Source: Clostridiaceae bacterium (GTDB lineage Bacteria > Bacillota > Clostridia > Lachnospirales > Lachnospiraceae). From it: DNA of 64,000 bases. The translations under genes and the position numbers were made by a program. Within the stretch, counting starts at the first letter, position 1. Every line of letters begins with the position of its first letter. Below are positions 13,640 through 64,000 of this stretch, piece after piece. The stretch is taken from contig CABJBA010000002.1 of NCBI GenBank assembly GCA_902363735.1, forward strand, positions 454,686 to 518,685. The letters run 5' to 3'. The notes under the pieces are model-generated. The model was given only the letters and a program-made list of their open reading frames with translations. It did no database searches and had not been told where the DNA came from.

Positions 13640-13663
13640 GTTTATTACAGGAGTATAAACAGT

Positions 13664-35058: not shown

Positions 35059-35138
35059 TAGTAGCAACGAGACTGGGAAACCTTATAAATAGGGCATTCC
35101 CAGACTTTTCTTTTGTCTCTGCTACTACTTTGCTACTA
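35059..35138. other. Candidate attachment-site junction with TAGTAGCA repeats
   Basis: TAGTAGCA follows the guaA stop at once (35059-35066), and its inverse TGCTACTA occurs twice, at 35120-35127 and 35131-35138. The outer pair makes an imperfect inverted repeat around the terminator. Further right, TGATATTAAA is directly repeated at 35222-35231 and 35234-35243, next to the integrase stop. These are the kinds of sites a tyrosine integrase binds. The other end of the element is outside the window, so the core cannot be fixed. Confidence 0.45.
35073..35114 (+). terminator. guaA terminator
   Basis: CTGGGAA (35073-35079) pairs with TTCCCAG (35097-35103), with a possible inner CCT/AGG pairing, followed by the T-rich ACTTTTCTTTT. 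Confidence 0.65.
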
Positions 35139-35238
35139 ACCGCAACTATCCTTTTTCTTAGTTCTTATGTGGCTTATAGTAGAATTTAGTGACAATACAG
35201 CACATGTTTTTATGGCATAGCTGATATTAAAGTTGATA

Positions 35239-36468
35239 TTAAACAATGTTTCGAATTGGCATTTGGATTACCTTTCCAGGTGCCTTTTCTTTTGGAACTG
35301 GACCAACTGGTGTTGGTGGAAAATTAGATGGTGCTGCGTCTTCCATAGTATATTCAAAAATGTCCAGTGAAAAGATATCATCTGGTGAAGGCGGTGTAGG
35401 AATTGCTTTCTCACCCAGATTTTGAAGATTATCAACCAATTCTTTCTGTTTGTGTGGAAACATATGCGAGTAAGTGTTCAGCGTTGTGGATACTTTCTCA
35501 TGACCCAGCCTGTTAGCAATCACAAGTGCATCGTATCCCTCATTGATAAGAAGAGAAGCGTGCGAGTGCCTTACGTCGTGAATTCGTATTTTCTTTACAC
35601 CTGAAACTTTGGAACCTCGTTTCATTTCATGTGCAAGAAATGATTTGGTGAAAGGAAATAATCTGCTCTTTGGATCAAGCATATACTGTCTGTCCATATA
35701 CTCCTTTACTTCCTGAAATAGAAAGTCTGGAATGGGAACGGTACGTTTACTTTTCTTGGTCTTTGGAGTAGTAATAACGTCTTTTCCTTTGCTCCGGGAG
35801 TAGGTCTTGTTGATACGAATGCTCTTTTCAAGAAGATTAATATCTTCCGCAGTAAGTGCTAATAGTTCACCTTCTCGAATACCTGTCCAGTAGAGAATTT
35901 CAAAACACATATAGGATACAGGTTTGTCTTTGATTGCGTCTCGAAAAGCAAGAAATTCATCCAGTGTCCAGAATTCCATTTCTTCGGCATTGCTCTTTCC
36001 CATGCTTCCTGCTTTGCCACAGGGATCAGTATTCAGGTCATAAAAGCGTTTGGCATAATTCATAATGCAGCTAAGCTGATTATTGATGGACTTAAGATAA
36101 GTGTCTTTGTACTCGTGAGAGTCTCTCATAATCTGTGTTTGCCATCTTCGAATGTCTGTAGCCTTAATCTCATTGATTGGCATTTTGCCAAAGTAGGGAA
36201 GAATCTTTGTCTCATAAATATTCTTCTTGTGCTGGATACTGCTTTCTTTTAGCCTGCCTGACATATCTTCTATATAAATCTCATATAGAGCTTGAAAGGT
36301 CATATCAGGATTGGCAGATTGCTTTTCTAGAAAGTCTCGTTCGAATGCAAGTGCTTCCTTTTTCGTGGCGAAGCCTCGTTTCCACTTTTGTCTGTTGACG
36401 CCTTGCCAGTCCTTGTAATAGAACTTGGCGTACCATTTACCAGTTTTGTCATCTTTGTAAGCTGGCAT
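35239..36468 (-). CDS. int: Tyrosine recombinase integrase of the mobile element
   Basis: About 409 residues. The start is set at 36468 (MPAYKDDKTGKWY) because AAAGGAG lies eight bases upstream; an in-frame ATG at 36477 abuts that site. Domains: an N-terminal arm-binding domain (residues 1-55), a SAM-like core-binding domain (about 65-165), and the catalytic domain with Arg in WTGIREGELLAL, HDVRHSHASLL, LGHEKVSTTL and the nucleophile Tyr in NTYSHM. It is of the Tn916/phage type. It faces guaA and ends 180 bases from it, so it probably catalyses integration at guaA and excision. A separate small DNA-binding gene at 37573 may be its directionality factor. Confidence 0.93.
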   Translation of the reverse strand: MPAYKDDKTGKWYAKFYYKDWQGVNRQKWKRGFATKKEALAFERDFLEKQSANPDMTFQALYEIYIEDMSGRLKESSIQHKKNIYETKILPYFGKMPINEIKATDIRRWQTQIMRDSHEYKDTYLKSINNQLSCIMNYAKRFYDLNTDPCGKAGSMGKSNAEEMEFWTLDEFLAFRDAIKDKPVSYMCFEILYWTGIREGELLALTAEDINLLEKSIRINKTYSRSKGKDVITTPKTKKSKRTVPIPDFLFQEVKEYMDRQYMLDPKSRLFPFTKSFLAHEMKRGSKVSGVKKIRIHDVRHSHASLLINEGYDALVIANRLGHEKVSTTLNTYSHMFPHKQKELVDNLQNLGEKAIPTPPSPDDIFSLDIFEYTMEDAAPSNFPPTPVGPVPKEKAPGKVIQMPIRNIV

Positions 36469-36552
36469 AAAAATCATCTCCTTTATCTAATTGTGTTAGT
36501 GATTGCTATGCTGATAGAACATCAGTTTCGCAATGCATTTATCTAAAGGCTA

Positions 36553-36561
36553 TGATATAAT
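36553..36561 (+). promoter_or_regulatory. Extended -10 on the plus strand upstream of int
   Basis: TGATATAAT (36553-36561) is an extended minus-10 match pointing away from int. No good -35 accompanies it. With the terminator at 36609-36660 it would make an RNA of about 95 bases. Confidence 0.3.
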
Positions 36562-36567
36562 CTACTT

Positions 36568-36660: not shown

Positions 36661-36672
36661 ATTTCTTAAATC

Positions 36673-37344
36673 TTAATTCTCATTATCCACTTTTACTATG
36701 TGAATTTTTTTCATAGAAGTATCTTTTTTACCTTCTCGTTCTCGTTTCTCTTTCATAATCTGAGCTGACATATTTGAAAAATAACTGTCGGAATAATACG
36801 CTATCATTTCTTTTTTCCAATCGGAGAAATTTTCTTCTGTCATCCTTTGAGCTTGAACAAGCTTCAATTTATTCATCCAATTTTCCATGAATAAGCATAA
36901 ATCAGTATTGTATTTTGCATCTGCCTTGCCATCAACAGTCAGAGAAGAAGTCCAATTGGGATCTTCTGGTGGTTTCGTATTAGAAATACCAAAGGATAAG
37001 TCTTTGATTTTGGTGATTTCAAATAGTGCATTAATTACATCACCTAATGTATCGAATTTATAGTAACGATCAGGATCATTTCTATCTACAAGAGAAATAG
37101 TAGGTGTCTCAATACCTAGTAGCTCTTGCCAGGGAATATCGAGTTCATTAGCAATTTCTTTTATTGTAGAAACAGAAAAATCAATTTCTCCTGCCTCATA
37201 CTTTTGTATCGTTCGTTCCGATTTATTTAATCTGTCTGCGAGTTCTTTTTGACTGACCTTTTTATCCTTACGTGCTGCTTGTATGCATTTGCCTATATCT
37301 GTGGCAGAAAAATGTTGCATTTTGTAAGCGTCAGAAGACATTTC
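36673..37344 (-). CDS. XRE-family repressor of the mobile element
   Basis: About 223 residues from ATG at 37344, which follows AAGGTGATAG; the frame is open to 37362 without a binding site. The N-terminal helix-turn-helix (GKCIQAARKDKKVSQKELAD, then NKSERTIQKYEAGE) is of the Cro/CI type; the C-terminal 130 residues are a divergent helical region without recognisable LexA-type protease motifs. It is divergent from the small DNA-binding gene at 37573 and shares an intergenic region rich in repeats. It most likely keeps excision and transfer genes silent. Confidence 0.88.
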   Translation of the reverse strand, partial: EMSSDAYKMQHFSATDIGKCIQAARKDKKVSQKELADRLNKSERTIQKYEAGEIDFSVSTIKEIANELDIPWQELLGIETPTISLVDRNDPDRYYKFDTLGDVINALFEITKIKDLSFGISNTKPPEDPNWTSSLTVDGKADAKYNTDLCLFMENWMNKLKLVQAQRMTEENFSDWKKEMIAYYSDSYFSNMSAQIMKEKREREGKKDTSMKKIHIVKVDNEN

Positions 37345-37376
37345 TATCACCTTACCTTTCATAAAACCGTATTTAA

Positions 37377-37540: not shown

Positions 37541-37572
37541 TTAAATTCTATTATAGAAGAAGGAGGAGTTTT

Positions 37573-37851
37573 ATGGTAGGTAGTAAAGAAGCGTTTATTG
37601 ATGTAGAAGAAGTACGTGAAGTACTAAGCATTGGGAAGACAAAGGCATATGCGATTATTAAATCTTATAACAGAGAGCTTGCGGCTAAGGGATTTCTGAC
37701 CATTCGTGGAAGATGCCCTCGTAAGTACTTTGAACAGAAGATTTATGGATATGCAGACTACTACAATCCAGCTGAGGATTTAGAAAGAAAACAGCTGGCG
37801 GTAGCCGAAGAAAGTAATTACCAGACAAAAGAAAAAGCCCTTACCGATTAG
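37573..37851 (+). CDS. Small helix-turn-helix protein, possible excisionase
   Basis: 92 residues, AGGAGGAG upstream. The first 60 residues resemble winged-helix excisionase/MerR-like DNA-binding modules (VEEVREVLSIGKTKAYAIIK followed by GFLTIRGRCPRKYFEQKIYG). The tail is charged. It is the first gene after the regulated promoter and divergent from the repressor, the place of excision or transfer regulators in related elements. It could be the recombination directionality factor for the integrase or a transcription regulator for the par/mob genes. Confidence 0.65.
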   Translation: MVGSKEAFIDVEEVREVLSIGKTKAYAIIKSYNRELAAKGFLTIRGRCPRKYFEQKIYGYADYYNPAEDLERKQLAVAEESNYQTKEKALTD

Positions 37852-38008: not shown

Positions 38009-38941
38009 ATGTATTTTAAAGAACAAAACATTTTGTTATGTGCCATTGACCATGGATTTTCAACAATTAAGACACCGCATTTTATATTCGACAATGGGGT
38101 TGAAGAAATTGGCACAGAAGCAACATTGGAAGCAAAGACAATGGATTACAATAATGCCATTTACAAAATTGGTGAAGGAAGACTTCCTATGAAGAATACC
38201 AAAATAGAAGATGATGATTATCTGTTACTCACATATGCAGCAATTGCAAAAGAAATGGAATATTATGGTGCATATGATGAAGATGGAGTAAAGATAGTAG
38301 TTGCCGCAGGACTTCCATTCACAAGATTTGGAGAAGAAAAAGTTAGCTTTAGCAACTATCTGAAACGAGGAGTGGAATCCTTTGTATATGAAGGAAAAAC
38401 ATATCTTATTAAGATTCAAGAGGTTCTATTATATCCTCAATGTTATGCTGCTGTGGCTAATATTTTAGGAAAGCTGGCACCAAATCAGTTGATTGTAGAC
38501 ATCGGTTCCAAAACTATAGATATTATCCATAATAAGAATTATGTTCCGGTAGAGCGAGAGTGCATCACAATCCCAGAAGCATTAATCAATTGCATGGCAA
38601 ATATCAATAAGGCAGTATTTCGAAGAAAAAACCGTTACTTGGATGAAAGTGACATTCAGGACGTGATGATGACTGGAACATCCAATCTTCCAAAAGAGAT
38701 TACAGAAATTGTGCAGAATCAGCTTTATATCTTTGCTGAAAATGTAGAAGCTCAGTTGAAAGAAAATGGGGTTGATCCAGAACTCACACCGATTGTGTAT
38801 GTGGGTGGAGGAGCTACAGTCATGAAACTCTTCGGACGAATCCGAGGAGCAAATATCTGTTATCAGGAAGATGTAAAGGCAAATGCTATTGGTTATGAAT
38901 ATCTGGCATTACAGAAAGTGGACAGGTGGTTGCATGAATAA
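38009..38941 (+). CDS. ParM/StbA-like actin-family segregation ATPase
   Basis: 310 residues, AGGAGG upstream. The actin-fold nucleotide-binding motifs are visible: CAIDHGFSTIK (phosphate 1) near 11-21, LIVDIGSKTIDII (phosphate 2) near 160-172, and YVGGGATVMKL (adenosine) near 265-275. ParM filaments push plasmid copies apart; on an integrative element this implies a replicating circular stage that needs partition. It overlaps the next gene by eight bases. The 157 bases before it contain nothing I can identify. Confidence 0.85.
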   Translation: MYFKEQNILLCAIDHGFSTIKTPHFIFDNGVEEIGTEATLEAKTMDYNNAIYKIGEGRLPMKNTKIEDDDYLLLTYAAIAKEMEYYGAYDEDGVKIVVAAGLPFTRFGEEKVSFSNYLKRGVESFVYEGKTYLIKIQEVLLYPQCYAAVANILGKLAPNQLIVDIGSKTIDIIHNKNYVPVERECITIPEALINCMANINKAVFRRKNRYLDESDIQDVMMTGTSNLPKEITEIVQNQLYIFAENVEAQLKENGVDPELTPIVYVGGGATVMKLFGRIRGANICYQEDVKANAIGYEYLALQKVDRWLHE

Positions 38942-39452
38942 TAAGGATCTGTCTCAAACTGTTACTTTTCGATTGAATCTTAATCATGAGGAAGATTCTC
39001 TGGTATGGGGGTTGTTACTATCTATGGAAGAAGAGCCAAGAAAAAGCTTGTTTGGAGATCGAAGTAAGTTCATCAAATGGGTGTTGACTAAATATGCCAG
39101 AGAAGAACTTGATTTTGATGATGAAAAGAAACGGTTGGAATTATTACGAAGAGATTTTGTTCAGTCAGCTCAGTATGAAATCAAAGAGATCGTTCAAAGA
39201 GAATCGGAATCTATTATGGAATCGCTTGAAAAAGTAGTAGAGCTTGCAGTATCAAAAGCAGTGAATGAAGTTCTTAAGGCAGTAGTAGCGGATGGGATTG
39301 CTACGGGAACTCAGGCAGCAGTAACATCGGCAGAGCAGAAAAGCGTAGTAATTCCCGAAGAAGTAGAAGTTCCGAAAATGGGAGTTTTGCCAGAAGCAGA
39401 TGGAGATAATGAACTTCCTACTTCGGCACTTAGTTTTCTGGACAGCTTTTAA
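38934..39452 (+). CDS. ParR-like partner of the ParM homologue
   Basis: 172 residues from ATG 38934 with AGGTGG upstream; an open extension to 38883 lies inside the ParM gene. The N-terminus (QTVTFRLNLNHEEDSLVWGL, then SKFIKWVLTKYAREEL) looks like a ribbon-helix-helix or ParR-type DNA-binding region, the middle is a helical, possibly coiled-coil stretch, and the C-terminus is acidic. Its position right after ParM, before a repeat-rich region, is that of a centromere-binding adaptor. The assignment rests on context more than sequence. Confidence 0.6.
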   Translation: MNNKDLSQTVTFRLNLNHEEDSLVWGLLLSMEEEPRKSLFGDRSKFIKWVLTKYAREELDFDDEKKRLELLRRDFVQSAQYEIKEIVQRESESIMESLEKVVELAVSKAVNEVLKAVVADGIATGTQAAVTSAEQKSVVIPEEVEVPKMGVLPEADGDNELPTSALSFLDSF

Positions 39453-39487
39453 GAGCTGTAGTTGCTTGGATTTATTATAAATATCTG

Positions 39488-39590: not shown

Positions 39591-39636
39591 TACAGATGGA
39601 TTTATCACATTCTGTACTTACCATATATAAGGGGTC

Positions 39637-39659
39637 TTAGGGGGATTTTAGCCCCCTAA
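39637..39659. repeat. Hairpin upstream of mob genes
   Basis: TTAGGGGG (39637-39644) is perfectly inverted as CCCCCTAA (39652-39659) with a seven-base loop. No U-tract follows, so it is more likely part of an oriT structure than a terminator. Confidence 0.5.
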
Positions 39660-39660
39660 C

Positions 39661-39696
39661 CAGACTTTGTTAAACGCCCTGCGTTTTACAAATCTG
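39661..39696. other. Candidate origin of transfer (oriT)
   Basis: An imperfect inverted repeat spans 39661-39677 and 39681-39696: CAGA-TTTGT-AAACGC pairs with its complement across a three-base loop, with one bulged C and one mismatch. Such stems next to the nick site are typical of oriT recognised by MobC and a MOBP relaxase, whose genes start 80 bases downstream. The nick site itself cannot be fixed from sequence alone. Confidence 0.5.
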
Positions 39697-39776
39697 ACAA
39701 AAAGCAATCATAACAGTTTCAGAAGGTGCTTAAAAAGGCCTTTGAAACATTTCTATAAGACAGATAAAAGGAGGAG

Positions 39777-40124
39777 ATGCTTATCGGAAGAAAGAAACAA
39801 ATGATAGATCCACGAAAAAACTTTACAGTTCGATTATCGGATAAGGAAAGGGAGCGGATCATGCAAGCAGCCAAAGAGAATGGACTGACACCCAGTGAAT
39901 ATCTCAGAGAATTGGTTTTGCATGGTGGCAAAGTGGACACGACACTTATGTTAGACAGGAGGGATCTGGTGAATCAGATTTCAAAGGTTGGAAATAATGT
40001 GAATCAAATCACACATGTAGCAAACGCAAGTCAAACGGTGAGTGAGTACAAAATTATGCAGATAAAAGATTATATGAGAGATATTTATAATCTATTGATG
40101 GAGGTGTTGAACAAATGGCAATAA
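39777..40124 (+). CDS. MobC-family relaxosome accessory protein
   Basis: 115 residues. The ribbon-helix-helix start (KNFTVRLSDKERERIMQAAK, GLTPSEYLRELVLHG) and the conserved QISKVGNNVNQITHVAN motif near 65-80 mark the bacterial mobilization MobC family, which melts DNA at oriT for the relaxase. AAAGGAGG lies only two bases before ATG 39777; the next in-frame ATG is 39801. It overlaps the relaxase gene by ten bases. Confidence 0.85.
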   Translation: MLIGRKKQMIDPRKNFTVRLSDKERERIMQAAKENGLTPSEYLRELVLHGGKVDTTLMLDRRDLVNQISKVGNNVNQITHVANASQTVSEYKIMQIKDYMRDIYNLLMEVLNKWQ

Positions 40125-42160
40125 CCAAAGTCATGCATATGAAGGCGAGCAAAAATCGGCAGATTGATGTTCACTTAAAACAAGCCATTACTTATATCTT
40201 AAAGCCTGAAAAGCTTGGAGATGCTAATCTGGTGGGCGGTATTAACTGCCTGCCGGAAAAGGCATATGAAATGATGAAGGGCACGAAAATGATGTTCCAA
40301 AAGACTGGTGGCAGACAAGGATATCATCTGGTGATTTCTTTAAAACCGGGGGAAGGAACACCAGAGCAGATGTATGACATTGCTATGCGGTTTGCGGAAG
40401 AGTTGCTGCATAATGAATATGAAGCAGTAGTGGCGGTTCATACAGACAGAGAACACCTTCACGCACATATTGTGTTGAACAGTGTGAATATGGTCAATGG
40501 TCATAAATTTCAATATCACAACGGAGACTGGAAAGCAACCATTCAACCGATTACCAATCGACTTTGCGAAGAATATGGACTGGATATTATGCCTGCGGAA
40601 TATAGCAAAGATCCAAAAAATATGTCCAGACCAGAATGGGAAAGGGAGAATTCCTACACAACACTGATAAAAGATGATGTGAGTTATTGTGCCATGCTTG
40701 CAGAAGATGAACGTCATTTTATATATCTGTTATCCAGACTTGGATATGAAGTCAAGGAAGGAAAGCATATCGCTGTGAAAGCTCCAGGTATGAAGCGATT
40801 TAAGCGAATTGATACGATTTCAGAAGATTTTACAAGAGAAAATATCAATGCTCTTATCCGTTATGGGGATAGAAGTAATGCTAGACCGAAAGTGTATACC
40901 TTTAATCCTATTTATGTAAAACGGGCGAAGCTGTCAAAATTTCAGAAGAAGTATTATGCGAGACTGTATCGCTTGCGACTGATAGAGAAAAAGCGTTTTC
41001 ATTTTAAGTCGGCACATTATTATGAAGCGATTAAGCAAATGCATTTGCTACAAGAAGAGTATCTTATGATTGTAAATCATGATATGCATTCTATAGCTGA
41101 TTTAATGGATTTGACAAATAAGCTTCAGAACGATTTGCAGGATGTAGAGACAGAACAAAAGCAGTTGTATTCGAAACGTGGAGTTGAAAAAAGAAAATGC
41201 AAGAATGCAGAAGATTTTCAGATGTTTCGTGATAGCGAACCTGAGTATAGATGTAAGCTAGAAGCATTGAAGGAAAGAAAGGGGAAGATTAAGGAGCAGA
41301 TCAAGATTGCAGAAAGATGTTGTGCGAAAGAAATATCTCGAGCGGCAGAAACACTAGATAGAATGTTTCCAGTTGATGAAATGGAAGAGATTACTGATAT
41401 CTATGATGTAGAAGTTCCTGAAAATCCGTATAAGGAAGTTGTTGTAGCGGTGGATGAAGTAGCTTTTTCAGATGAATTAAAATCTTTAGCAATATCGCCT
41501 GTAGAAAAAGTGACTGGACTTGCGAGGGAAGATGAACCAATAATAATAGTGCCTGAACCATCAATCGATCCAGTCTATGATTCGGTAATAGAATCATCAG
41601 ATATGGTTGAAGGTGAGACAATTGTTTCTGATGTTGCTGAAATCTTAGTAGATGTGTCACAGAGAAACGACGTGAAATGTATGGAACTTCCTAAGGATCT
41701 AGCTGAATATCAAAGATTGTCTTTACAAGAAAAAGCGGAAAGATTTCCATTTGAAAGACTTGCTGACGATAAAACATTTAATTATTTTATGGATTATTTG
41801 ACGGAGATTGGAAGCGGAATGGGATTTAGTGAAGCTTATGATGAATTTGCTGAAATATCAGAATGTTGGGATAAGATACAGGAAGAAAGACTTGTTGAGC
41901 GAGAAGTTGAGAAATCCATGGATCTATGCGACATAATGGGTATGACACCAGAATTGTTCAAGCAGGCAAGTGTGGATATAAGAGCAATGGTCTTTCATCT
42001 GGAGGAACTGGATTATAAGGTCGGGGTCAAGGTTTATCGTGGGGTTCTTGAAAAACTTGGGATACAGAAAGAGTTGATGGATATTTATGATGAATTTGAT
42101 GAGGTTTATACGGAAAGTATGACAGATAAGAAAAAGGATGATAAGGAACGGAGGAGATAA
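40115..42160 (+). CDS. MOBP-type relaxase (MobA/VirD2 family)
   Basis: 681 residues. The N-terminal 250 residues are the relaxase: an early Tyr in AITYILKPEK, GYHLVISLKPGEGTPEQ, and the metal-binding histidine triad HTDREHLHAHIVLNS near 108-122. It nicks one strand at oriT and pilots it into a recipient. The rest is a charged helical region and a C-terminal helical module without a recognised name. Together with MobC it makes the element mobilizable. No coupling protein or type IV secretion gene follows; cargo begins instead. Confidence 0.9.
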   Translation: MAITKVMHMKASKNRQIDVHLKQAITYILKPEKLGDANLVGGINCLPEKAYEMMKGTKMMFQKTGGRQGYHLVISLKPGEGTPEQMYDIAMRFAEELLHNEYEAVVAVHTDREHLHAHIVLNSVNMVNGHKFQYHNGDWKATIQPITNRLCEEYGLDIMPAEYSKDPKNMSRPEWERENSYTTLIKDDVSYCAMLAEDERHFIYLLSRLGYEVKEGKHIAVKAPGMKRFKRIDTISEDFTRENINALIRYGDRSNARPKVYTFNPIYVKRAKLSKFQKKYYARLYRLRLIEKKRFHFKSAHYYEAIKQMHLLQEEYLMIVNHDMHSIADLMDLTNKLQNDLQDVETEQKQLYSKRGVEKRKCKNAEDFQMFRDSEPEYRCKLEALKERKGKIKEQIKIAERCCAKEISRAAETLDRMFPVDEMEEITDIYDVEVPENPYKEVVVAVDEVAFSDELKSLAISPVEKVTGLAREDEPIIIVPEPSIDPVYDSVIESSDMVEGETIVSDVAEILVDVSQRNDVKCMELPKDLAEYQRLSLQEKAERFPFERLADDKTFNYFMDYLTEIGSGMGFSEAYDEFAEISECWDKIQEERLVEREVEKSMDLCDIMGMTPELFKQASVDIRAMVFHLEELDYKVGVKVYRGVLEKLGIQKELMDIYDEFDEVYTESMTDKKKDDKERRR

Positions 42161-42440: not shown

Positions 42441-42656
42441 ATGACAGATAAGCAAATAAAAATAACGTACAAACCATTATGGAAATTGCTTATAGACCGA
42501 GAAATATCAAAGACTGAGTTGCGCAAAAATACAAAGATTGCGCCCAGTACATTTACAAAAATGAATAACGACCAACAAGTATCATTGGATGTCCTTGCGA
42601 GGATATGTATTGAATTGAAGTGTGGATTTGATGATATTGTGAAGATTGAGCCCTGA
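42441..42656 (+). CDS. Small XRE-type regulator at the head of the cargo
   Basis: 71 residues, nearly all helix-turn-helix: ITYKPLWKLLIDREISKTEL, then IAPSTFTKMNNDQQVSLDVL and a C-terminal helix (CGFDDIVKIEP). This is the short Cro/CI-like type common as regulators at the head of restriction or defence cassettes. It has its own promoter and GTGGAGG binding site. It probably represses itself and perhaps the genes downstream. Confidence 0.85.
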   Translation: MTDKQIKITYKPLWKLLIDREISKTELRKNTKIAPSTFTKMNNDQQVSLDVLARICIELKCGFDDIVKIEP

Positions 42657-45436: not shown

Positions 45437-45449
45437 AAAGGTGGCAATG

Positions 45450-51938: not shown

Positions 51939-52742
51939 ATGAGTAAACGTAATGGAAAATGTGCACTTTGTAAAAAAGAAACAGAATTAACCTTTGAACA
52001 TATTCCTCCGAGATCAGCATTTAATTGTTCACCTGCAAAACCTATTTCAGGAGATAAAATGCTACAGGATAACGACAGAATGCCATGGGATTTGGAAGGA
52101 TTACAGTACTCTAATCAACAACGCGGTATGGGAAGATTTAGTCTCTGTCAGGAGTGTAATAATAATACGGGAACGTGGTATGGAGATGCATATAGAGTAA
52201 TTGCACATATATTAAATTGCATTTTAAAACAAGGTGTAACAGCTGATACTAAAGGGATTGGAATAAAGGATGTATATCCACTTCAATTTATTAAGCAAGT
52301 TATTTCCATGTTTTGTTCAATCAATAATTATGATGATTCTAGAATGGATAATTTACGCCTCTTTGTTTCAGATAAAAACAAAACAGGAATCGATAAAACA
52401 AAGTATAAAATATGTATGTATTTCACACAAAGTAATTTGGTGAAATATGCACCATTATCAGTTGTTCTTAGAACAGCCGATAATGGATATGAGAGTATGG
52501 CTTTGAGTGAAATTACGGCATACCCATTTGGGTTCATTTTGTATTTTGATCCAGTTGAAACATGGTCTTATGAGGGGATAGATATTACAGATTTTGCAAA
52601 CTGTAAGTATATGGATAAAGCTGATATTGAAATGCCATTATGTATAAAAGAGATGAATGATATTTTTCCGACATTTTATCGATCAAAAGAAGAAATAATG
52701 GAATGTTTTGAACAAAATAAAGCTAAAAAATATAGAAGTTAG
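51939..52742 (+). CDS. HNH-type endonuclease
   Basis: 267 residues, GAAGGGAG upstream. The N-terminal third is a zinc-bound HNH fold: CALCKKETELTFEHIPPRSAF at 8-28 in two pieces (CxxC, then EHIPPR) and LCQECNNNTGTWYGDAY near 69-85. The remaining two thirds are unrecognised mixed sequence that could bind DNA or a partner. It is 119 bases before the primase-helicase gene on the same strand, so it may be that system's nuclease. No Cas or restriction methylase motif is seen. Confidence 0.8.
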   Translation: MSKRNGKCALCKKETELTFEHIPPRSAFNCSPAKPISGDKMLQDNDRMPWDLEGLQYSNQQRGMGRFSLCQECNNNTGTWYGDAYRVIAHILNCILKQGVTADTKGIGIKDVYPLQFIKQVISMFCSINNYDDSRMDNLRLFVSDKNKTGIDKTKYKICMYFTQSNLVKYAPLSVVLRTADNGYESMALSEITAYPFGFILYFDPVETWSYEGIDITDFANCKYMDKADIEMPLCIKEMNDIFPTFYRSKEEIMECFEQNKAKKYRS

Positions 52743-52861
52743 AATTGAATTTTTATAATTTAAGTCATTTATAGCTATAAATGAAAAGTGGAAATCATCA
52801 AAGAATGATCTTGACTTTCAACAACTTGCAGTCTGGTAGAACAAGTAAAGGAGGTATTCCC

Positions 52862-55800: not shown

Positions 55801-55867
55801 TGTGAGTAAAGAAATTGCGCAGGAGATTATGGAGATTACATTTGGTAAAAGTGAAAAAGAATCTTAA
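52862..55867 (+). CDS. TOTE-type primase, SF2 helicase and phospholipase D fusion
   Basis: 1001 residues from ATG 52862 behind a perfect AAAGGAGG; the open extension to 52781 lacks support. Residues 1-35 are coiled coil. Residues about 60-340 match the archaeo-eukaryotic-type primase domain of TOTE conflict systems: CPKKTGNKIKCGEC zinc pairs, FLVFDFDNHDE near 164 (metal-binding acids), RSGKGAHIWLFFE near 217. A superfamily-2 helicase follows with GAATAFGKTAVGAYL near 491, IMDECHHGAS near 598, GLTATPKRDD and EQYAGRLHRDF. The C-terminus is a single phospholipase-D-like nuclease motif, HEHYAIFDGEIVWYGSMN near 948. It probably unwinds, copies and cuts invading nucleic acid. A 34-base gap separates it from the next gene. 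Confidence 0.82.
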   Translation: MDDKDKIIQELQQKVFSLESRVEYLQDILKEAKIPYENDIEQPEETELHTDAKEENQGARIIPEVITQNHAKYFYSIFKGRMDVYSKRGGKPNPKTGKTGYYTQCWNFWKDGICPKKTGNKIKCGECKNQNYKPLTGENIMNHLKGEREDCSDVIGLYPMFPDETCNFLVFDFDNHDEKTNGDDFANTDDEWMEEVNAMRAICKYNDIQVLVERSRSGKGAHIWLFFEESIPASLARKFGTALLTKGAESVNQKNFKSYDRMLPAQDHMPEGGLGNLIALPLQGQALKNGNSAFIDEKWNAYPNQWNVLKETSKISKAYIEEKVNEWTTDGLLGVLAEDMCGNIEKSENEESKPWEKKKQRFEVSDINGTLNITLANQIYIDIENVKPRLQNQIRRLAAFSNPEFYKNQAMGFSTQGTARIIACSQDVEHYVCIPRGCKESLVEKLTDSGVSFKKEDCRQAGKSISVSFVGELYPEQKKAADKMLSYDIGILGAATAFGKTAVGAYLVSARKVNTLILVHNTEIMKNWVEDFEKFLHINEELPEYKTATGRIKKRKSVIGRMYAGHNSVTGIIDVVMISSLGKKGEINQLVKEYGLVIMDECHHGASQTAEEVLNEVNAKYVYGLTATPKRDDGQEQKVFMQFGPIRYRYTAKDKAKEQGIDHFVYPRFTRLVHAEGETLKINEAYQMVRESDIRNNQIISDVEDCLENGRTPLVLTKFKDHARYLYDKLSGKADHIFLLQGGKSGKERDLIRRQMKEVPENETIVLVAIGQYIGEGFNYPRLDTMMLTTPIAWQGNVEQYAGRLHRDFEGKQDVIIYDYVDSHIRVMERMYHKRLRAYKKIGYEICLALTDKKQIANAIYDNESYAAIYEKDLLEANNNIIISSPGINEKKVKRIISLLRKRQESGVDVTVMTLKPESYPENRVEKTRQLINQLMEVGIIVRQEPIMHEHYAIFDGEIVWYGSMNLLSGEKEDDNLMRVVSKEIAQEIMEITFGKSEKES

Positions 55868-55901: not shown

Positions 55902-58900
55902 ATGTCAGATACTATAATTTTACATATGAGTGATTTACATTTTTCTTCTAAAGAAGAAGATAAAAATATTAAAGATAGTATTATGCAATCGTTGTTAAAT
56001 GAATTAGAGACAGTTGAAGCATCATGGAAACCTATATTAGTATGTGTATCTGGTGATATAGTTGATAAATATGATGTTGAAGCATATCCAATAGCTAAAG
56101 AATGGTTTGAGAAAGTATCAACTAGATTAAGTGTACCAATAGATCATTTTTTGTTTACACCAGGAAATCATGATTGTAGTCGAGATATAATGAAATACCC
56201 AAAACTTACAAATATAGATGATGAAGATGCAGAAAAATTGCTGGGGAATACAATTCCAGCATATCTCTCCGAACGCTTTGTAGAATATGATAAATTTTGT
56301 AAGAGTCTTCAAGTGGTTCCATATAAATGGAATGGTACTTCGAATTATTTGGTAGGCCATAGGGTGGTGGATAATATTGTTTTTTGGGGATGTAATACGG
56401 AGTGGTTTAGTTATGATGATAATTCAGAACTGAGAGTTGGAGAAAATATTATTGGTGGATTACAACAAGATTGTGAAGAATATATAGACTTAAAAAAAAT
56501 AGCGCTTATGCATCACGGAACAGAAACGGGTTTTTGTGAAAGAGAAATACAATATCACAATAATAGCATTTGCCCAGCACTTCATCATTTGTGGAAAATT
56601 TGTGACATGACATTGTATGGACATAGTCATGAACAAACGGGTGGAGATCCTAATAAGATGGAAGATCATTGTTTTACGATTAAAGCTGGGTCTACTAGTT
56701 TGAATAAAAACTACTCGAATAATGTAAATTTGATACGTTTAAAGGAGAATTCTTTTGAAATAAAATATGTAAATTATTGCCCTCAGGATGTTGAGCATCA
56801 TTGGGTTGTTTCACTAGAAAAAAAGGAACATTTTTGGAACGCAGATTTGAAAAGTAATAAAACGTGTAGGAATATTTCTGATACAAATATAAATGATTTA
56901 CGTGAAAAAGTAGAAATATATTCGAGGAATCTTTTAGAAAACAAATTACGTCAAATAAAAATTGAAGGTGTCTTACCAAATACAATATTACGCAATGTAG
57001 AATACTTAAAAAGAGATGAAAAGGGAAAAATAACGGAAAAGACGGAAACTATTAGCTTGGAAGAGATAATCTCTGTTGAAAAAAGAGTTATAGTTCAAGG
57101 TGATTTAGGGGCAGGAAAAAGTACAATATTAGCACAATCAGCATTATTACTATCGGATGAAAATGCTGATTGTGTTCCAATACTTGTACCCGCAAAAGAA
57201 TTGGCCGTGTATAATGATGGAACAGTCGCATCTGTGCTAGAAGGTATTATTCAATTTTTAATAAAACAATTATTAATTGAAATTCCATCAATTGATACAA
57301 TTGTAGAATGTGCAGAAAGAGTTTATCTTTTAGTAGATGGATTAGATGAGGTAAATAAAAATGAGCAGGAATCTTTAATGCGCATTTTAGAACAAGTTCC
57401 TTCTTTTAAACATCACATTGTTGTAGTTTTATCAACTAGAACTACAGAAGCAGTTGAATATCATAAAGATAATTGGTTTAGGTGTATGTTAGGGAGGCTA
57501 CAACAACAGGAAATATTTCAAATTATAAGAAATGAGGCCATTGCTGATCAAAAAGAAGAAAGTGAACTTTATGCGAAAAAATATTTGGAAAAAATCGATC
57601 AAAATCCCATGATTCGATTAGTTTCAAATACTCCTTTAGCAGTCAGAATGCTATATCATTTAATTAAGAAAAACGAAAATGTAGATAATTATACAATCGG
57701 GGATTTATTAGACATACTCTTAGAAGAGAGAATTAAGTACTGGGATGAAAAAAACGGTAGGAACATACAGGAAGATTTGTTTGAACAAAACTTTAGAACA
57801 TTGGATGAAAAGAAAAATTTTATTGGTTATCTGGCATATCAAATCAATCAGGGAAAAGTTACAAGGAAAAAACTTGAATTCCTTTTAAAGGACTATCTGA
57901 AATCATCCATAAATACAGGCTTATTGGTAGAGCAAGCACTATTTATATTAACTAAAAATGGTATGGTTATTGAGCAAAATGGGGATATTTCATTTACATA
58001 CCGTCCACTAGAACAGATAGCGTTGGGAAATTATATAGCGGAACAAATTGTGAATAAGAATATCATGGCACAAGAATTATCCATTGAACTGTGGAGAGAG
58101 GTATCATTTGCAGCAGGAAAGTTACGTCAATGGAGAATATTAGATAATTATAGAAAATGGTTTATTGAGTATATGAATCAGTTAAAAATGCAAGTTGCGG
58201 GGCTAACTAAAGGGTGCTACATATGTTATGAATCTAAGGATAATGACCTGGCAATAAACATGATAGATAATTTTGAAGGAAAAAGTATAAGACCATTATG
58301 GTATTATGAAGAGGAGAAGACAGTATCATTAAATGTAGTTGCTCAAACAATTTCATTGGCTGGTGCTAGGGGTGTTGACTGGTTTTTAGAGTCATATTTG
58401 AATTTATGTTATCCAGTAATTAATACTGGTAGTAGATTTTTTTCTGAGTTATATTGCACATTAGCTCCATTAATTAAGAATATTCTTACAAAGGAACAAA
58501 AACAGAAACTGGAACGATGTATTGAACCATTAGAATATATTTGTCCAATTGCTTATATTGATTTACCTAAAATCCTATGTTTCTTAATGCCAGATAAATA
58601 TCCGATTGATAGAAGATTACAGCTTATAAACGATTTAGCTACAAAGGAAGAATATAAGACATGGGCATTGGCAGAATATAAAAAAATGTATGAAGATTAT
58701 TCTGACTTGTGCGATATGACATTAAAGTCAAGTGGAACATATAGTGCAGCATATATATGGATGAATTTATATCAAGAAGCACCAAATATTAAAATGTTAG
58801 GAAATATAATCAAATATGGAGATCAAGAGTTTGTTTGTGAGTGCCGTAGGCGTTTGGGACAATTAAAATACAAACGATTTCTTAAATGTTTGCTTGCTAG

Positions 58901-61100
58901 CTCACAAAACGATATTGCAGCAGCAGCTGCATTTGAGCTGTGTAATGAAAATATGGATAATTTATGGGAAGTAAGAGGTGCATTAGTCGGTGGAATGATT
59001 AATTCCACTAAACATAACAGATATGAAAACATAATTATCGAACTAATAGAAAAAGATGGTGAGCTGAACGAACAATGGATTAAAGTCTTATTTGCAAGAG
59101 AATATCATATTTATGGCGCTAGCGAAGGTAGTTGGCGGATTTTTTTGAAGTTCCTTGTAAAGTCCAATAATGACATGTCAAGCTTTTTTATCACGAAGTT
59201 AGCATTTATGGGTCCGTTTTTGCTTTCAAGATGTGAAGAGACACGTTTGTTGTTCCGAAAACTACTGAAGAAAGAGGAGTATAAGAAAGCATTATTAAAT
59301 GCAATATCTTCTGTGAATCCAGAAATTAGTCATGCCGCTGCAAAAGTTGGGGTAGTTGCTTACCCAGAACTAGAAAAACAATGCATTTTTCTTGCGTTGA
59401 GTGAAATGTCGTTTGATTCAAATGATTTTGAATGGCAAGAGTTCTTGATTGAAAAAAAATACCAAGATGAAACTATTATTTTTTTAAAAACACAATTACC
59501 GTCTATGAACGGAAAAGTTAGTGAATTTGTAGAAAAGTTATTATTAGCAAAAGAGAATATGCCAAATAATGAATTGGAAGTTGTAACAGATGAGGAATTT
59601 GCAGTTTTAGAGATAGAAAATTCATCCAAATATGGAATTTCATATTTACGACATTTTATCAATTTATTAAAGAATTATGTAAATGAAGAAACATATCAAC
59701 GAGTACAAAAAAAATGTGAATTTAATTCTAATGTGGAGGTACTATTCTGTTTTAAATATTGTAGTGATAGGGACATAGGACCAAGCTTTATAATCGATTG
59801 GTCTAGACTACTATGGTATAAATTTGTGGGCAAGAATATTGGATTTCATGAGATAGATACCTTTGCACTAGAGATAATAGCGTATGGAAAAGAAAATCCT
59901 GAGGCGGTTGAACCAATTTTAAATGCAGTAAAAGAAATTTGTGAAGATGAACGTTTGGAAAAAGACAGATGGATTTCAAATTATCATTGGCTATTAGTTA
60001 TAGAATATTCTTTTGGAGAAATAAGTGATACCCTCATAAAAAATGCTTTTGTGCAAAAGGAAGAATATTTAGGAGAATCGAGTTTGGCTTTGGCTGCAAT
60101 ATATTCAGGGAATCTAAATGACCTGAATATAAAAAGAAAAGATAAAAAGGTTATCGCCGAAAAAGAGAATATCAGCAACCAGGAAAAACTTCTGCAATGC
60201 GCGAAAGAGTCTGAGGTGATTTCTAAAGATATATGGAGAATAATCCAAATATATGTTAGTAGAACTGATAGTTGCGAACAAGATTACATTGAGAATTTAA
60301 TTTCCAAAGGGAAAAATGGAACTTTAATCGCAGGTGTTTTATCATACTGTTATGGAATGCCTATTCCAATGCAGAGTGGTATGATTGTACATCAGATTTA
60401 CTTTCCTTGGAAAAAAATAGAATCTGAGGAATTTGTAAAGATGCTTCAATTTGTGAGAAGAGCATTTGCAACACAGATTGATAATTCAGCTGGTTTAGAT
60501 AACTATAAAAAGTATCTAATATCTTTAGAAGAACATATAGAAGAATTTTCTTATGAAAAAAGTTATATTATGTCAGAGTGCTTCACCTATTTAAAGGATT
60601 CAATAACAACTAAAAAAATAGCATATTATATAGATATGATTATGGATAATGCTTTTTTTAGTGAATATACAAATGCTATATGGAGACAAATTACTTTGTA
60701 TATAAAAGAAAAGAACGATGAGAATTATGAAGAAATAATCACTTCATTACAAAAAGCACTATATAAAATTATTGGGTCATGTGAGAAACATAATTCATAT
60801 AAATATGAAGATTCATATAGTCAAATTTCAATAGCTGTCTTGTATTGGTATTTGAAAAAAAGATACGAATCATTAGCCCAGCCTATTTTTGAAAGAGGAA
60901 TCATTAGTTTGTTTCAAGGTGAGAAAAAAAGTAATCGTTTGGAGAAAATACCATATGAAAATTTTTCTGAATTACATATGGTATTGGAATTGCTCCCAAG
61001 GGATATTTTTAAAATTGCACTTGAGCAGATGAAATATAGTTGGATAAAAGAAGCTAGGATATTGGCAAAAATGTTGGAATCATTAAATAGTAGGTTATGA
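55902..61100 (+). CDS. Giant metallophosphoesterase-NACHT protein
   Basis: 1732 residues, AAGGGGAGAG upstream. Residues 1-300 are a calcineurin-like phosphoesterase with all usual motifs: MSDLHFS (Asp10, His12), SGDIVDK near 50, PGNHDCS near 86, MHHGTE near 204 and YGHSHEQ near 240. A NACHT ATPase follows: IVQGDLGAGKSTIL (Walker A, near 398-411) and VYLLVDGLDEVNK (Walker B, near 473). About 1000 residues of helical repeats make the likely sensor. There is no signal peptide or membrane helix. By analogy with bacterial NLR-like proteins, ligand binding would trigger assembly and activate the phosphoesterase on nucleic acid or nucleotides. The domain order is clear; the function is inferred. Confidence 0.82.
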   Translation: MSDTIILHMSDLHFSSKEEDKNIKDSIMQSLLNELETVEASWKPILVCVSGDIVDKYDVEAYPIAKEWFEKVSTRLSVPIDHFLFTPGNHDCSRDIMKYPKLTNIDDEDAEKLLGNTIPAYLSERFVEYDKFCKSLQVVPYKWNGTSNYLVGHRVVDNIVFWGCNTEWFSYDDNSELRVGENIIGGLQQDCEEYIDLKKIALMHHGTETGFCEREIQYHNNSICPALHHLWKICDMTLYGHSHEQTGGDPNKMEDHCFTIKAGSTSLNKNYSNNVNLIRLKENSFEIKYVNYCPQDVEHHWVVSLEKKEHFWNADLKSNKTCRNISDTNINDLREKVEIYSRNLLENKLRQIKIEGVLPNTILRNVEYLKRDEKGKITEKTETISLEEIISVEKRVIVQGDLGAGKSTILAQSALLLSDENADCVPILVPAKELAVYNDGTVASVLEGIIQFLIKQLLIEIPSIDTIVECAERVYLLVDGLDEVNKNEQESLMRILEQVPSFKHHIVVVLSTRTTEAVEYHKDNWFRCMLGRLQQQEIFQIIRNEAIADQKEESELYAKKYLEKIDQNPMIRLVSNTPLAVRMLYHLIKKNENVDNYTIGDLLDILLEERIKYWDEKNGRNIQEDLFEQNFRTLDEKKNFIGYLAYQINQGKVTRKKLEFLLKDYLKSSINTGLLVEQALFILTKNGMVIEQNGDISFTYRPLEQIALGNYIAEQIVNKNIMAQELSIELWREVSFAAGKLRQWRILDNYRKWFIEYMNQLKMQVAGLTKGCYICYESKDNDLAINMIDNFEGKSIRPLWYYEEEKTVSLNVVAQTISLAGARGVDWFLESYLNLCYPVINTGSRFFSELYCTLAPLIKNILTKEQKQKLERCIEPLEYICPIAYIDLPKILCFLMPDKYPIDRRLQLINDLATKEEYKTWALAEYKKMYEDYSDLCDMTLKSSGTYSAAYIWMNLYQEAPNIKMLGNIIKYGDQEFVCECRRRLGQLKYKRFLKCLLASSQNDIAAAAAFELCNENMDNLWEVRGALVGGMINSTKHNRYENIIIELIEKDGELNEQWIKVLFAREYHIYGASEGSWRIFLKFLVKSNNDMSSFFITKLAFMGPFLLSRCEETRLLFRKLLKKEEYKKALLNAISSVNPEISHAAAKVGVVAYPELEKQCIFLALSEMSFDSNDFEWQEFLIEKKYQDETIIFLKTQLPSMNGKVSEFVEKLLLAKENMPNNELEVVTDEEFAVLEIENSSKYGISYLRHFINLLKNYVNEETYQRVQKKCEFNSNVEVLFCFKYCSDRDIGPSFIIDWSRLLWYKFVGKNIGFHEIDTFALEIIAYGKENPEAVEPILNAVKEICEDERLEKDRWISNYHWLLVIEYSFGEISDTLIKNAFVQKEEYLGESSLALAAIYSGNLNDLNIKRKDKKVIAEKENISNQEKLLQCAKESEVISKDIWRIIQIYVSRTDSCEQDYIENLISKGKNGTLIAGVLSYCYGMPIPMQSGMIVHQIYFPWKKIESEEFVKMLQFVRRAFATQIDNSAGLDNYKKYLISLEEHIEEFSYEKSYIMSECFTYLKDSITTKKIAYYIDMIMDNAFFSEYTNAIWRQITLYIKEKNDENYEEIITSLQKALYKIIGSCEKHNSYKYEDSYSQISIAVLYWYLKKRYESLAQPIFERGIISLFQGEKKSNRLEKIPYENFSELHMVLELLPRDIFKIALEQMKYSWIKEARILAKMLESLNSRL

Positions 61101-61220
61101 GTCATAAGGCCAATATTTCCGATATGAATACTATAGTGAAGGAATATGATTTTACTTAATTCCCAAATCAAAGGTATTATTTTGGGTGAATTATAATCAG
61201 AAGGAGGAATTTATTCGACA

Positions 61221-63230
61221 ATGGATTATATATATAATAATCACTTACAGATCGACAAAGTGACATATTTGACAATTGTAATTGGACAACTAACAATATA
61301 TGGCATTTTATTAACATTTTATCAGTTTGTAGCATCGTTCCAAGGTAGTCAAAATTCAATGACAAGATACTTGGGAGTCAATTTGACTGAATATTTTATT
61401 AAAAAGAAAGTGTCTATTTACAATAGAATTATATCAAAGCCTATATTTTTTATCCTTTTGGTGATTGAAGTATTATATAAACCGATGTTAACTATATGTG
61501 GGAGTTATTTTTCGGAAAAATCCATAAATGTCATGAATTTCATATGGTATACTTTTGTGATTTTCTATTTTATTATGTTTATCATTCTATTTGGGCAGTG
61601 TACAAAGAGTATTTTAACGCTAAAGAGAATATCTGATGCTAAGCGAAATGGTGGAATAATTCGTGATATAAATAAATCATTTATGAAAAAGTCTTTAAGA
61701 GATCGTTTAATAAATAAATCTGTAGATTTGCTAAATTATGATATAGAGTATTTACGGGATGTGATTCTGGAAGATAATGATCCAGAATTACAGAGTAAAT
61801 ACAATCATTTAATAGATCAAATTTTTAGTTCTTATATTAGCAACAAGGAAAAGGAAATATTACTAATAAGCCAAAAGAACAAAATTGTTAAGAATCAAAT
61901 ACCATGGGTATATAATGCAAACTGCGAATGTACACTGATAAATGGGATTCTGGATGGGAAATATTTTCCGGTTGATGAAGAATTAATAACCATTATATAT
62001 AAAGTGCACATCCGATTAGTGGAACTCTTGATGAAAAGAGCTAAGATGGAAACATTTGAGCATATTAGTCATGATTATTATCGAAGTGATTTTTTTATAA
62101 ATCAAAATAATTTGTTGGATTGTGGTGATTGGAAACAACTGACAGTTAAAATATATAAAAATTCAAATATTGAAGTTAAGAAAAGACTAATAAAGATTTT
62201 GCAAATGGGATATCTTGAGAATGAAGGAATGTATCAAGAATATTGCAGTGATTGTATTACATATATAATTCGTAGTGATATAGATGAAATATTTAATGGA
62301 AAAAAATTGCAGAATGAATTTGTAAAGATATTTGGTGAATTAATTCAAAATGAAAAAATTAATGATTATTGTGCAGACATTATACGTGATAATTTGATAT
62401 CATACGATGATGTTGACGTTGTAGAGTTACTGAAATTACTAAATAAAGAAAATTGTACATGCGTATTTTCTTATATAATAATATATTATTCGATATATAA
62501 GTTTAGATTTGATTGGAAGTATATTAATATAACTGTAATAGAAGAATTGTGGAAAAATCATGGAAATTTAAAAACCGATTCAAAAAAAGTTCTAAATACA
62601 TTTAAAGAATCAAATATTGAACACCGCTTTTCTGATAACATGTATTATAAACTTGTAGAGTATCTTCATAAAACGTTGACGGGTTCTTTATTAGAATCAA
62701 TGTATACGGATAAGTTAGTAGATATGTTTTACATTACTATTATTAAACTATGCGTAATGGACCACAGTTATCTTGGATATGTTGATAAGGCTGGAGCCGA
62801 TACACAGATTAATTTTATAAATGAACTTTCAAAGCATAGTGAGTTAATGAAGTTTGACGAGGTTAAAAAAATGGTTGGTGATATGCAGTATAATTATTTT
62901 ATGGAGTTAAAACATATTCCACAAAATTTAAAAATAACTTTAGGAAGTTTATTGCTTACTAATTTGAATCTTTCATCAGAAGTTTTATCTGATGAAAAAG
63001 CTCGATATTCATATTACAGTAGCATTGGCAAATATGCTTTAATTAAATTATCAGAAACCACTAAAGAAAATTCTATTCAAAAAGAGTTAATTAGAAAAGC
63101 ATACGTAGCAAGTAATATGCCAATTGATGAATATATAGAATTTTTAAATCAAGAATGTGGCATTTGGGGGAACGGTTTGAATTATGTTCAAAAAGAAAAA
63201 ATGAAAGAATATTTGATAAGTATTATATAG
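61221..63230 (+). CDS. Multi-pass membrane protein of unknown function
   Basis: 669 residues; AAGGAGG lies 13 bases before ATG 61221, an unusually long gap. The first 135 residues hold three clear membrane helices (LTIVIGQLTIYGILLTFYQF, FFILLVIEVLYKPMLTI, FVIFYFIMFIILFGQ). The other 530 residues are cytoplasmic, Lys/Asn/Ile-rich and helical. I recognise no family. It follows the metallophosphoesterase-NACHT gene by 120 bases on the same strand and shares its strong AT bias. It could be a membrane effector or an anchor for the neighbouring system, or an independent toxin-like defence protein. Confidence 0.6.
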   Translation: MDYIYNNHLQIDKVTYLTIVIGQLTIYGILLTFYQFVASFQGSQNSMTRYLGVNLTEYFIKKKVSIYNRIISKPIFFILLVIEVLYKPMLTICGSYFSEKSINVMNFIWYTFVIFYFIMFIILFGQCTKSILTLKRISDAKRNGGIIRDINKSFMKKSLRDRLINKSVDLLNYDIEYLRDVILEDNDPELQSKYNHLIDQIFSSYISNKEKEILLISQKNKIVKNQIPWVYNANCECTLINGILDGKYFPVDEELITIIYKVHIRLVELLMKRAKMETFEHISHDYYRSDFFINQNNLLDCGDWKQLTVKIYKNSNIEVKKRLIKILQMGYLENEGMYQEYCSDCITYIIRSDIDEIFNGKKLQNEFVKIFGELIQNEKINDYCADIIRDNLISYDDVDVVELLKLLNKENCTCVFSYIIIYYSIYKFRFDWKYINITVIEELWKNHGNLKTDSKKVLNTFKESNIEHRFSDNMYYKLVEYLHKTLTGSLLESMYTDKLVDMFYITIIKLCVMDHSYLGYVDKAGADTQINFINELSKHSELMKFDEVKKMVGDMQYNYFMELKHIPQNLKITLGSLLLTNLNLSSEVLSDEKARYSYYSSIGKYALIKLSETTKENSIQKELIRKAYVASNMPIDEYIEFLNQECGIWGNGLNYVQKEKMKEYLISII

Positions 63231-63277
63231 AAATGAAAGTCTCCATAACAAATGAAGACCTTCATTACTTGATGATA

Positions 63278-63529
63278 TTAATTAAATTCATTCATAGCAT
63301 CTACATAATCCTGTAAACCACTACCAGACAATGCAAATTTAGCATAAGTCAATGGTTGTTCTTCCGCTAGATGATACAGATAAACAACATCATTTGGATC
63401 ATCAAACATGACAGTGGAATTGAAATCTTTGCAACGTATAAAGAGAGCAGTACCAGTGCCAGTATTAGCTTCCACAGTATCAGTTACTGGATTGTACATA
63501 GCAAATTGAAAATTAATGTCATTCATGAT
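63278..63529 (-). CDS. Small element protein, DUF6061-like
   Basis: 83 residues from ATG at 63529, eight bases after AAGGAG; the frame is open to 63571. The pattern (YNPVTDTVEANTG ... AEEQPLTYAKFALSG ... QDYVDAMNEF) reminds me of the DUF6061 family common on conjugative elements of Clostridia, but this is from memory and weak. Its start overlaps the end of the upstream gene. Function unknown. Confidence 0.55.
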   Translation of the reverse strand: MMNDINFQFAMYNPVTDTVEANTGTGTALFIRCKDFNSTVMFDDPNDVVYLYHLAEEQPLTYAKFALSGSGLQDYVDAMNEFN

Positions 63530-63884
63530 GTTCTCCTTCCCAAAGATACTTGGCACCATCAAGCATATCAATAATTGCTTTTAGTACAAGTTCATATTCG
63601 GTTTGAAGTACCGAGATTTCCTCGGAGGTTGGAAGGGCAGACATGGTATCGCTGGTAAATGAAGTATGCATATTGCTAAGTTGAAGATATAATTTTCTTA
63701 GGACTTCAACCAAAGGATATATCGTTTCTTTCTTGCCTACAACACAGATTCGATTATAGATGCAGGAACGAACAAAGTAATCTTTCTTCATCATACCGCT
63801 GGCAAGAATTCGTACTTCAATAGCTTTTCTTTCATATTCAGATACACGAAAACTTATAGTTGGATTTTTATGTTTATTGCTCAT
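63519..63884 (-). CDS. MobC-like ribbon-helix-helix accessory protein
   Basis: 121 residues with AAAGGAG before the ATG at 63884. The N-terminus TISFRVSEYERKAIEVRILA followed by MMKKDYFVRSCIYNRICVVG is the ribbon-helix-helix pattern of mobilization accessory proteins and resembles the MobC homologue at 39777 in layout, though without its VGNNVNQI motif. It runs opposite to the cargo genes and is translated with the 83-residue gene. Its presence shows the mobile element continues to here. Confidence 0.7.
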   Translation of the reverse strand: MSNKHKNPTISFRVSEYERKAIEVRILASGMMKKDYFVRSCIYNRICVVGKKETIYPLVEVLRKLYLQLSNMHTSFTSDTMSALPTSEEISVLQTEYELVLKAIIDMLDGAKYLWEGEHHE

Positions 63885-63909
63885 AGCAAACTCCTTTCAA
63901 AAGTATACG

Positions 63910-64000
63910 GTAAATAGCTAGTACCGTGCAAATTAGTTGCAGCCATGAGATAATACCTCCAAAGATCAAAGGAGATTTATCAAATGGACAAGATCACACA
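63910..64000 (+). mobile_element. Probable left end of an IS66-type insertion sequence
   Basis: GTAA at 63910 begins a short leader before a small ORF that starts MDKIT, both resembling IS66-family left ends and the TnpA accessory protein of clostridial IS66 elements. The repeat cannot be confirmed because the right end is outside the window. Confidence 0.4.
63984..64000 (+). CDS. Start of a gene cut by the window edge, possible IS66 TnpA
   Basis: AAAGGAG (63968-63974) and ATG 63984 give a well-formed start encoding MDKIT before the sequence ends. IS66 accessory proteins of Clostridia often begin this way; five residues are too few to be sure. Confidence 0.4.

Follow-up and report, generated by a model that had tools for sequence, protein, structure and literature searches.

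What occupies the 3' end of guaA in this bacterium, and what does it carry? In the 64,000-nucleotide stretch analyzed here (the window; contig CABJBA010000002.1, positions 454,686 to 518,685), the chromosomal guaA gene (33460..35058, plus strand; GMP synthase with Pfam GATase and GMP_synt_C domains) is followed by what is very probably one integrative mobilizable element (IME) of about 29 kb, taking up 35059-64000 of the window, with the guaA 3' end as integration site. Gene order after guaA was tyrosine integrase, repressor, Xis-like protein, ParM-like protein, a protein in the ParR position, a predicted origin of transfer (oriT), MobC, relaxase, a small helix-turn-helix (HTH) gene and seven cargo genes. 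The initial annotation had already described the integrase beside an intact guaA 3' end and the repressor, par and mob genes behind it, and all were found where it had placed them. GC content was 44.4% for 1-35058 but lower within the element, at 37.3% for the backbone and 31.7% for the cargo.

The element encoded its own site-specific recombinase at a fixed target, the integrase lying beside guaA and the junction being repeated in three relatives, as well as its own relaxase with an accessory protein. No mating-pore or secretion family was matched in a Pfam scan of the 15 frames of 35059-64000, as had been noted before, the last ~140 bp before the predicted right attachment site (attR) lying outside the window. 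The direct repeat expected at both ends was seen on the left (attL) in the window copy, and on the right in relatives. Integrase, Xis-like protein, MobC, relaxase, oriT-like block, sharp left junction and the relatives' right ends together thus support the mobilizable element proposed at guaA. It could probably be transferred by the transfer machinery of other elements, and we infer that the window copy is mobile.

The left junction was observed directly. The GuaA frame was intact (532 aa); relatives aligned from about residue 19-20, and the true start probably lies slightly inside the frame. The integrase was convergent with guaA, 180 bp apart, and a terminator-like hairpin was seen by eye after guaA. 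The attL core, made of guaA end sequence (35047..35057, plus), was found again as a copy at the right end of relatives, and three repeats, GCTACTA, GCTACTA and GCAACTA (35121..35148, plus), presumably integrase arm sites, were words that also precede attR in relatives. DNA identity to three relatives (two Anaerocolumna records and one Bacillota metagenome-assembled genome) was 71.6-74.5% over the last 600 bp of guaA vs 89.5-92.2% over the first 150 bp past the stop. The left junction was thus sharp in all three. The element was more similar than its host gene, a pattern that transfer would produce. In 11 of 18 fetched guaA loci a related integrase was present in full or in part, the fetched stretches differing in length and two of the loci (G001 and G005) being known through their integrase (9/16 for the remainder); guaA is therefore a busy site. 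Among 200 genomes from the Anaerocolumna family, which we take to be Lachnospiraceae, the two nearest encoded a GuaA with 89% identity to that of the window, and Anaerocolumna AGMB13025 one with 77%; the host likely belongs to this family, outside Anaerocolumna itself.

Most backbone genes could be assigned to families. The integrase (35239..36477, minus) displayed Arm_4 and SAM_3 domains in Pfam and matched integrases in PHROG; it shared 92-95% identity with the proteins of two Anaerocolumna records and of one Bacillota metagenome-assembled genome, in two of these three over the C-terminal half only. It was followed by a Cro/C1-type repressor (36673..37362, minus; HTH_3 2.8e-13), an Xis-like excisionase (37573..37851, plus; NCBIfam ICEBs1 Xis 9.8e-12, below the curated cut-off) and a ParM-like actin partition protein (38009..38941, plus; PHROG partition protein 7.9e-26, ALP_N over cut-off). 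The small protein in the ParR position (38883..39452, plus) was named from its place only and had no family match in Pfam, PHROG or NCBIfam. The predicted oriT, a 72-bp block (39630..39701, plus) containing a perfect inverted repeat and an imperfect one, aligned well by eye with the relative G128 while its flanks did not, and its 18-base core, derived from the window and G128, was present in one of 132 fetched loci, namely G128. The MobC/NikA relaxosome accessory protein (39777..40124, plus; NikA-like 1e-15 and MobC 5.6e-9, both over cut-off) and a MobA/VirD2-type relaxase (40115..42160, plus; Relaxase 1.5e-37, TraI/MobA(P) 6.3e-16, the latter below cut-off) completed the set.

The right end was traced through a MobC/MbpA-like gene, here named mobC2 (63519..63884, minus; NikA-like 38.7 bits, over cut-off), which was missing from the earlier gene list, every gene on that list being confirmed. 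A search of 397 Anaerocolumna-family genomes with mobC2 returned eight at E <= 1e-40. The right-end set (n=8) comprised G001 (Anaerocolumna AGMB13025), G128, G137, G183, G515, G612, G706 and G182, the match of the last covering residues 1-65 only; G674 (mobC2 61%, directly after the integrase) was left out. A copy of the guaA end lay 249-261 bp past the mobC2 start in six of the eight, with no mismatch to the 16-base motif in G128 and G612, one in G706, two in G137, and three each in G001 and G182. On alignment, the relatives' right ends were alike up to this copy and not past it. From the position of these copies, we infer that attR of the window copy should lie near 64134-64161, ~140 bp past the window end.

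The same gene was met in another arrangement. mobC2 directly followed the integrase in 12 elements (L057, L105-L113, G674 and G706), most of which had been fetched because of their mobC2 match. In these (L057, L105-L113, L125 and L122) both genes stood in a row on one strand, unlike in the window, and nine (L106-L113 and L122) had an xis-like gene just before the integrase.

Past the relaxase, seven genes on the same strand encoded proteins of 847, 497, 1589, 267, 1028, 1732 and 669 aa, with 4-147 bp between them. They had been described as seven large AT-rich genes on one strand; strand and composition held, but the HNH protein is small (267 aa), and a small HTH regulator heads the cargo (42441..42656, plus; VanU-type HTH 2.1e-17, below cut-off). 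Nearly all had been credited with anti-phage architectures, and six of the seven did carry domains linked to anti-phage systems or nucleases, the HNH protein weakly, its HNH_5 domain falling below the Pfam cut-off.

The first (42893..45436, plus) was a GmrSD-type protein with a DUF4268 tail, where GmrSD_N (122.4 bits) and GmrSD_C (89 bits) both exceeded the curated cut-offs, as expected of a GmrSD type IV restriction protein, as did DUF4268 (117.7 bits). Next to it, a Schlafen/AlbA_2 protein with a GHKL-like C-terminal domain (45441..46934, plus) scored 37.1 bits for SLFN_AlbA_2 (cut-off 25.3 bits) and 41.3 bits for HATPase_c_4, also over cut-off. The SMEK-STAND protein (47022..51791, plus; SMEK_N 96.2 bits, over the Pfam cut-off) matched with its first 160 residues the Mrr domain of a pAgo in PDB (4.6e-7). 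Its residues 87-1071 aligned to positions 69-1071 of the Avs4 model (NCBIfam NF041815), and its length was similar (1589 vs 1579), but it reached only 146.8 bits against an equivalog cut-off of 1500 bits and bore an N-terminal SMEK domain; by its sequence it is a distant relative of Avs4, not a member.

The HNH-type nuclease candidate (51939..52742, plus; HNH_5 4.3e-4) had 290 relatives at E <= 1e-3. The TOTE-type protein (52781..55867, plus) combined in one chain an AEP primase (AEP-TOTE 282.7 bits), an SF2 helicase (ResIII) and a PLD domain (PLDc_2), all over cut-off. Primase and helicase were common to this protein and its plasmid relatives, which were 36.7-39.5% identical among the matches listed (ten; 198 more records), but in these ten the alignment reached no further than residue 876 and so left out the PLD domain (901-1018). 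A calcineurin-type phosphoesterase fused to a NACHT STAND ATPase (MPE-NACHT; 55902..61100, plus) showed Metallophos (36.5 bits) followed by NACHT (36.1 bits), both over cut-off, and had 64 relatives, one of them 92% identical and lying on contigs of up to 176 kb. It matched PADLOC PDC-S60 (4.9e-22) over residues 6-558, which take in both the phosphoesterase and the NACHT part, but at 1732 aa against a 1027-position profile it had a long extra tail. Motifs checked by eye were apparently intact (Walker A/B in SMEK-STAND and NACHT, the phosphoesterase motifs, GmrSD DGQQR, HNH, primase DxD), and the PLD HxK motif of the TOTE protein read HEH.

The last protein (61221..63230, plus; 669 aa) was a helical-repeat protein whose hydrophobic N-terminal helices were read by eye as a membrane anchor. 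It had 119 relatives, one of them 97% identical and encoded on a 23.9-kb contig, and no match in Pfam, PADLOC, NCBIfam or PHROG; its model was nearly all-helical (pLDDT 85), with no significant fold match. A split TOTE-like gene, seen by eye in two frames (L115:852-3645), stood ~9 kb from the sole distant relative of this membrane-type protein.

The cargo is exchanged in the slot between the relaxase and the right-end gene mobC2. G128 harbored the whole element in 19.1 kb, bounded by attL at guaA and, 250 bp beyond mobC2, by an attR that matches it. Its backbone was shared with the window (integrase 65%, repressor 50%, Xis 61%, ParM 70%, ParR-position protein 37%, MobC 51%, relaxase 45% and mobC2 72% identity). 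In its slot lay genes for a methylase of type II (3.6e-72), a pair of type II restriction proteins (2.2e-130 and 7.3e-124; LlaJI/McrBC-like in our reading), GajA (5.2e-153), GajB (4.9e-173), an SLFN protein, and one protein with no PADLOC or Pfam match.

Anaerocolumna AGMB13025 encoded at guaA a TOTE protein 93% identical to that of the window and a mobC2 85% identical, with an att-like sequence 261 bp past mobC2; its integrase was cut to partial length, and no relaxase or partition gene was matched in 39.5 kb. Because both ends and the right-end gene were kept beside the truncated integrase, we read this copy as a decayed element. Its DNA resembled the window only at the left end, over the TOTE gene (52791-55850) and in the mobC2 region (63508-63904), which suggests that TOTE was transferred on its own, as one gene. 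The initial annotation had held that the same island at guaA in relatives without the integrase would speak against it; this genome goes half of that way, with part of the island beside a truncated integrase, both ends and mobC2, and is not taken as contradicting the element. The backbone of G128 with other cargo and the Anaerocolumna TOTE together argue for an exchangeable cargo slot.

Near mobC2, other relatives encoded a full-length SIR2-pAgo (1215 bits) with an SLFN protein (G612), a TIR protein (PDC-M14B 7.6e-36) with an SLFN protein (G137), a MkoC-like helicase (7.5e-64; G515) and an LmuB-like ATPase (1.2e-20, 72.3 bits; G183), the matches in G515 and G183 being weak as defence matches. 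In the eight mobC2 genomes, 19 SLFN matches were obtained (1-4 each), and SLFN lay within 1.4-5.0 kb of mobC2 in five of the eight where 0.10 would be expected for 20-kb stretches, a tally chosen after the data were seen. In G515 (L124/L123), a long run of small repeated genes, polymorphic-toxin/immunity-like by eye, preceded the mobC2 end. The domain content, together with the different defence-type genes that relatives have in this slot, supports the defence island that had been proposed; the cargo would comprise several separate anti-phage-type systems, each defence function being predicted.

Several observations weigh against this picture of one element with exchangeable defence cargo. The right junction of the window copy lies beyond the window, and the last 100 bases bear no clear likeness to relatives, among which the spacer past mobC2 varies too. 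Within the right-end set, no att-like sequence was found past mobC2 in G183 and G515, and those of G137, G182 and Anaerocolumna were imperfect. Only in G128 and Anaerocolumna did a single stretch hold guaA, the two ends and either backbone or cargo; mobC2 and guaA were on different contigs in G137, G182, G183 and G612 and 109 kb apart in G515. G182 displayed SLFN only, split over two frames, and in G706 mobC2 sat in a guaA array among insertion sequences, where no defence gene was recognised. PADLOC at E <= 1e-10 matched four of the seven cargo proteins (GmrSD, SMEK-STAND, TOTE and MPE-NACHT) vs three of ten chromosomal controls taken upstream in the window, and the LmuB-like match in G183 was about as strong as that of the chromosomal AAA_23 gene of the window (67.0 bits). 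The control matches were RecQ as DpdF (4e-191; 5946-7781), AAA_23 as LmuB (4.8e-19; 10307-13474; SbcC-like in our reading) and UvrA as mad3 (1.5e-107; 13622-16489).

PADLOC alone therefore does not show the cargo to be richer in defence genes than the chromosome, and the defence reading was built on the Pfam domains present, on matches over the full length and on paired genes. That PADLOC profiles also match chromosomal RecQ, UvrA and AAA_23 proteins leaves some room, though improbable, for a cargo mainly serving element maintenance, regulation or inter-element competition. The Gabija pair, the SIR2-pAgo and the restriction proteins in the slot or beside mobC2 of relatives, as well as GmrSD and TOTE domains above Pfam cut-offs, argue for anti-phage-type cargo instead.

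It seems still less probable that this was once an integrative conjugative element, in which cargo took the place of lost secretion genes and which now moves only with help or not at all. ParM-type partition and relaxases of this kind occur also in conjugative plasmids, and relatives of the relaxase were found on plasmids classed as mobilizable (909), conjugative (225) or non-mobilizable (97), all below 60% identity and none covering 80% of the relaxase. However, G128 has the same short backbone with no secretion gene recognised among its genes, not all of which were scanned, so that the backbone looks old rather than freshly reduced.

Arrays do exist at guaA: G706 (L122+L121) is a tandem array of elements, with four guaA-end copies in series over 32 kb at joined-stretch positions 7292, 20711, 30630 and 39067, the first being guaA itself. 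That MPE-NACHT, the membrane-type protein and mobC2 belong to a second such element in the window is nonetheless very unlikely, in spite of that array and of the 12 elements with mobC2 directly after an integrase, since the guaA-end core motif occurred once in 35040-64000, at the left end, as did the arm-type repeats beside attL (the looser 16-base motif at <=4 mismatches matched in two scattered places, 35553 and 46493), and since in G128 two att copies enclose the same integrase-to-mobC2 layout as a single unit.

Neither an IME at guaA nor an IME carrying defence genes is new, and the window element adds one member. ATE-1, GIsul2 and an IncP island are IMEs or putative IMEs at the guaA 3' end, and IMEs with restriction systems are on record, in the entries of PMC5704250. 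The former share with the window element a tyrosine integrase and the guaA-end target, but differ in hosts (Trueperella, Pseudomonas and Brucella) and in cargo, for which those entries name tet(W), resistance to arsenic, and toxin-antitoxin genes, and no block of several defence genes (PMC5704250). Hotspots of E. coli harbour IMEs and further elements with defence genes of many kinds (PMC10121019), like the window element at fixed sites and often with several systems adjoining; the host group is another, and the comparison is one of arrangement. Among the papers listed, none was titled for this guaA element group, a judgment from titles that does not show absence from print.

In the cycle we propose for the IME, the integrase would recombine the chromosomal guaA end with a copy of the final guaA codons that the element brings along; guaA would therefore stay intact. 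The Xis-like protein would aid excision of a circle, which ParM may help to maintain, and MobC and relaxase would nick oriT, one strand leaving via the mating pore of a resident conjugative element. The relaxase-mobC2 slot would hold mostly single-gene systems, probably limiting phages or rival elements: GmrSD by cutting modified DNA, SMEK-STAND and MPE-NACHT by sensing an invader protein that triggers the nuclease-type or phosphoesterase domain, and TOTE and HNH by acting on invader DNA.

Integrase and mobC2 stood at opposite ends of the window element, and an excised circle would make them neighbours in the order seen in the 12 other elements. More speculatively, the clade might be a dedicated courier of defence genes, with a fixed backbone, one slot and a recurring Schlafen-like gene, in which the circle's att site between integrase and mobC2 would let mobC2 be transcribed from the integrase side only after excision, and the membrane-type protein would be a new effector or sensor family. 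Control of mobC2 by the circle junction is a guess; the hairpin after guaA weighs against simple read-through.

Through the window element, a group of guaA elements in Lachnospiraceae-type bacteria is linked to the spread of defence-type genes. The slot is a defined place to look for unknown genes next to known systems, the membrane-type and HNH proteins being direct candidates for testing, and the clade-level pattern is worth a survey. At the left edge of the window, two GGDEF-EAL proteins were encoded (70-1356 and 3154-5730).

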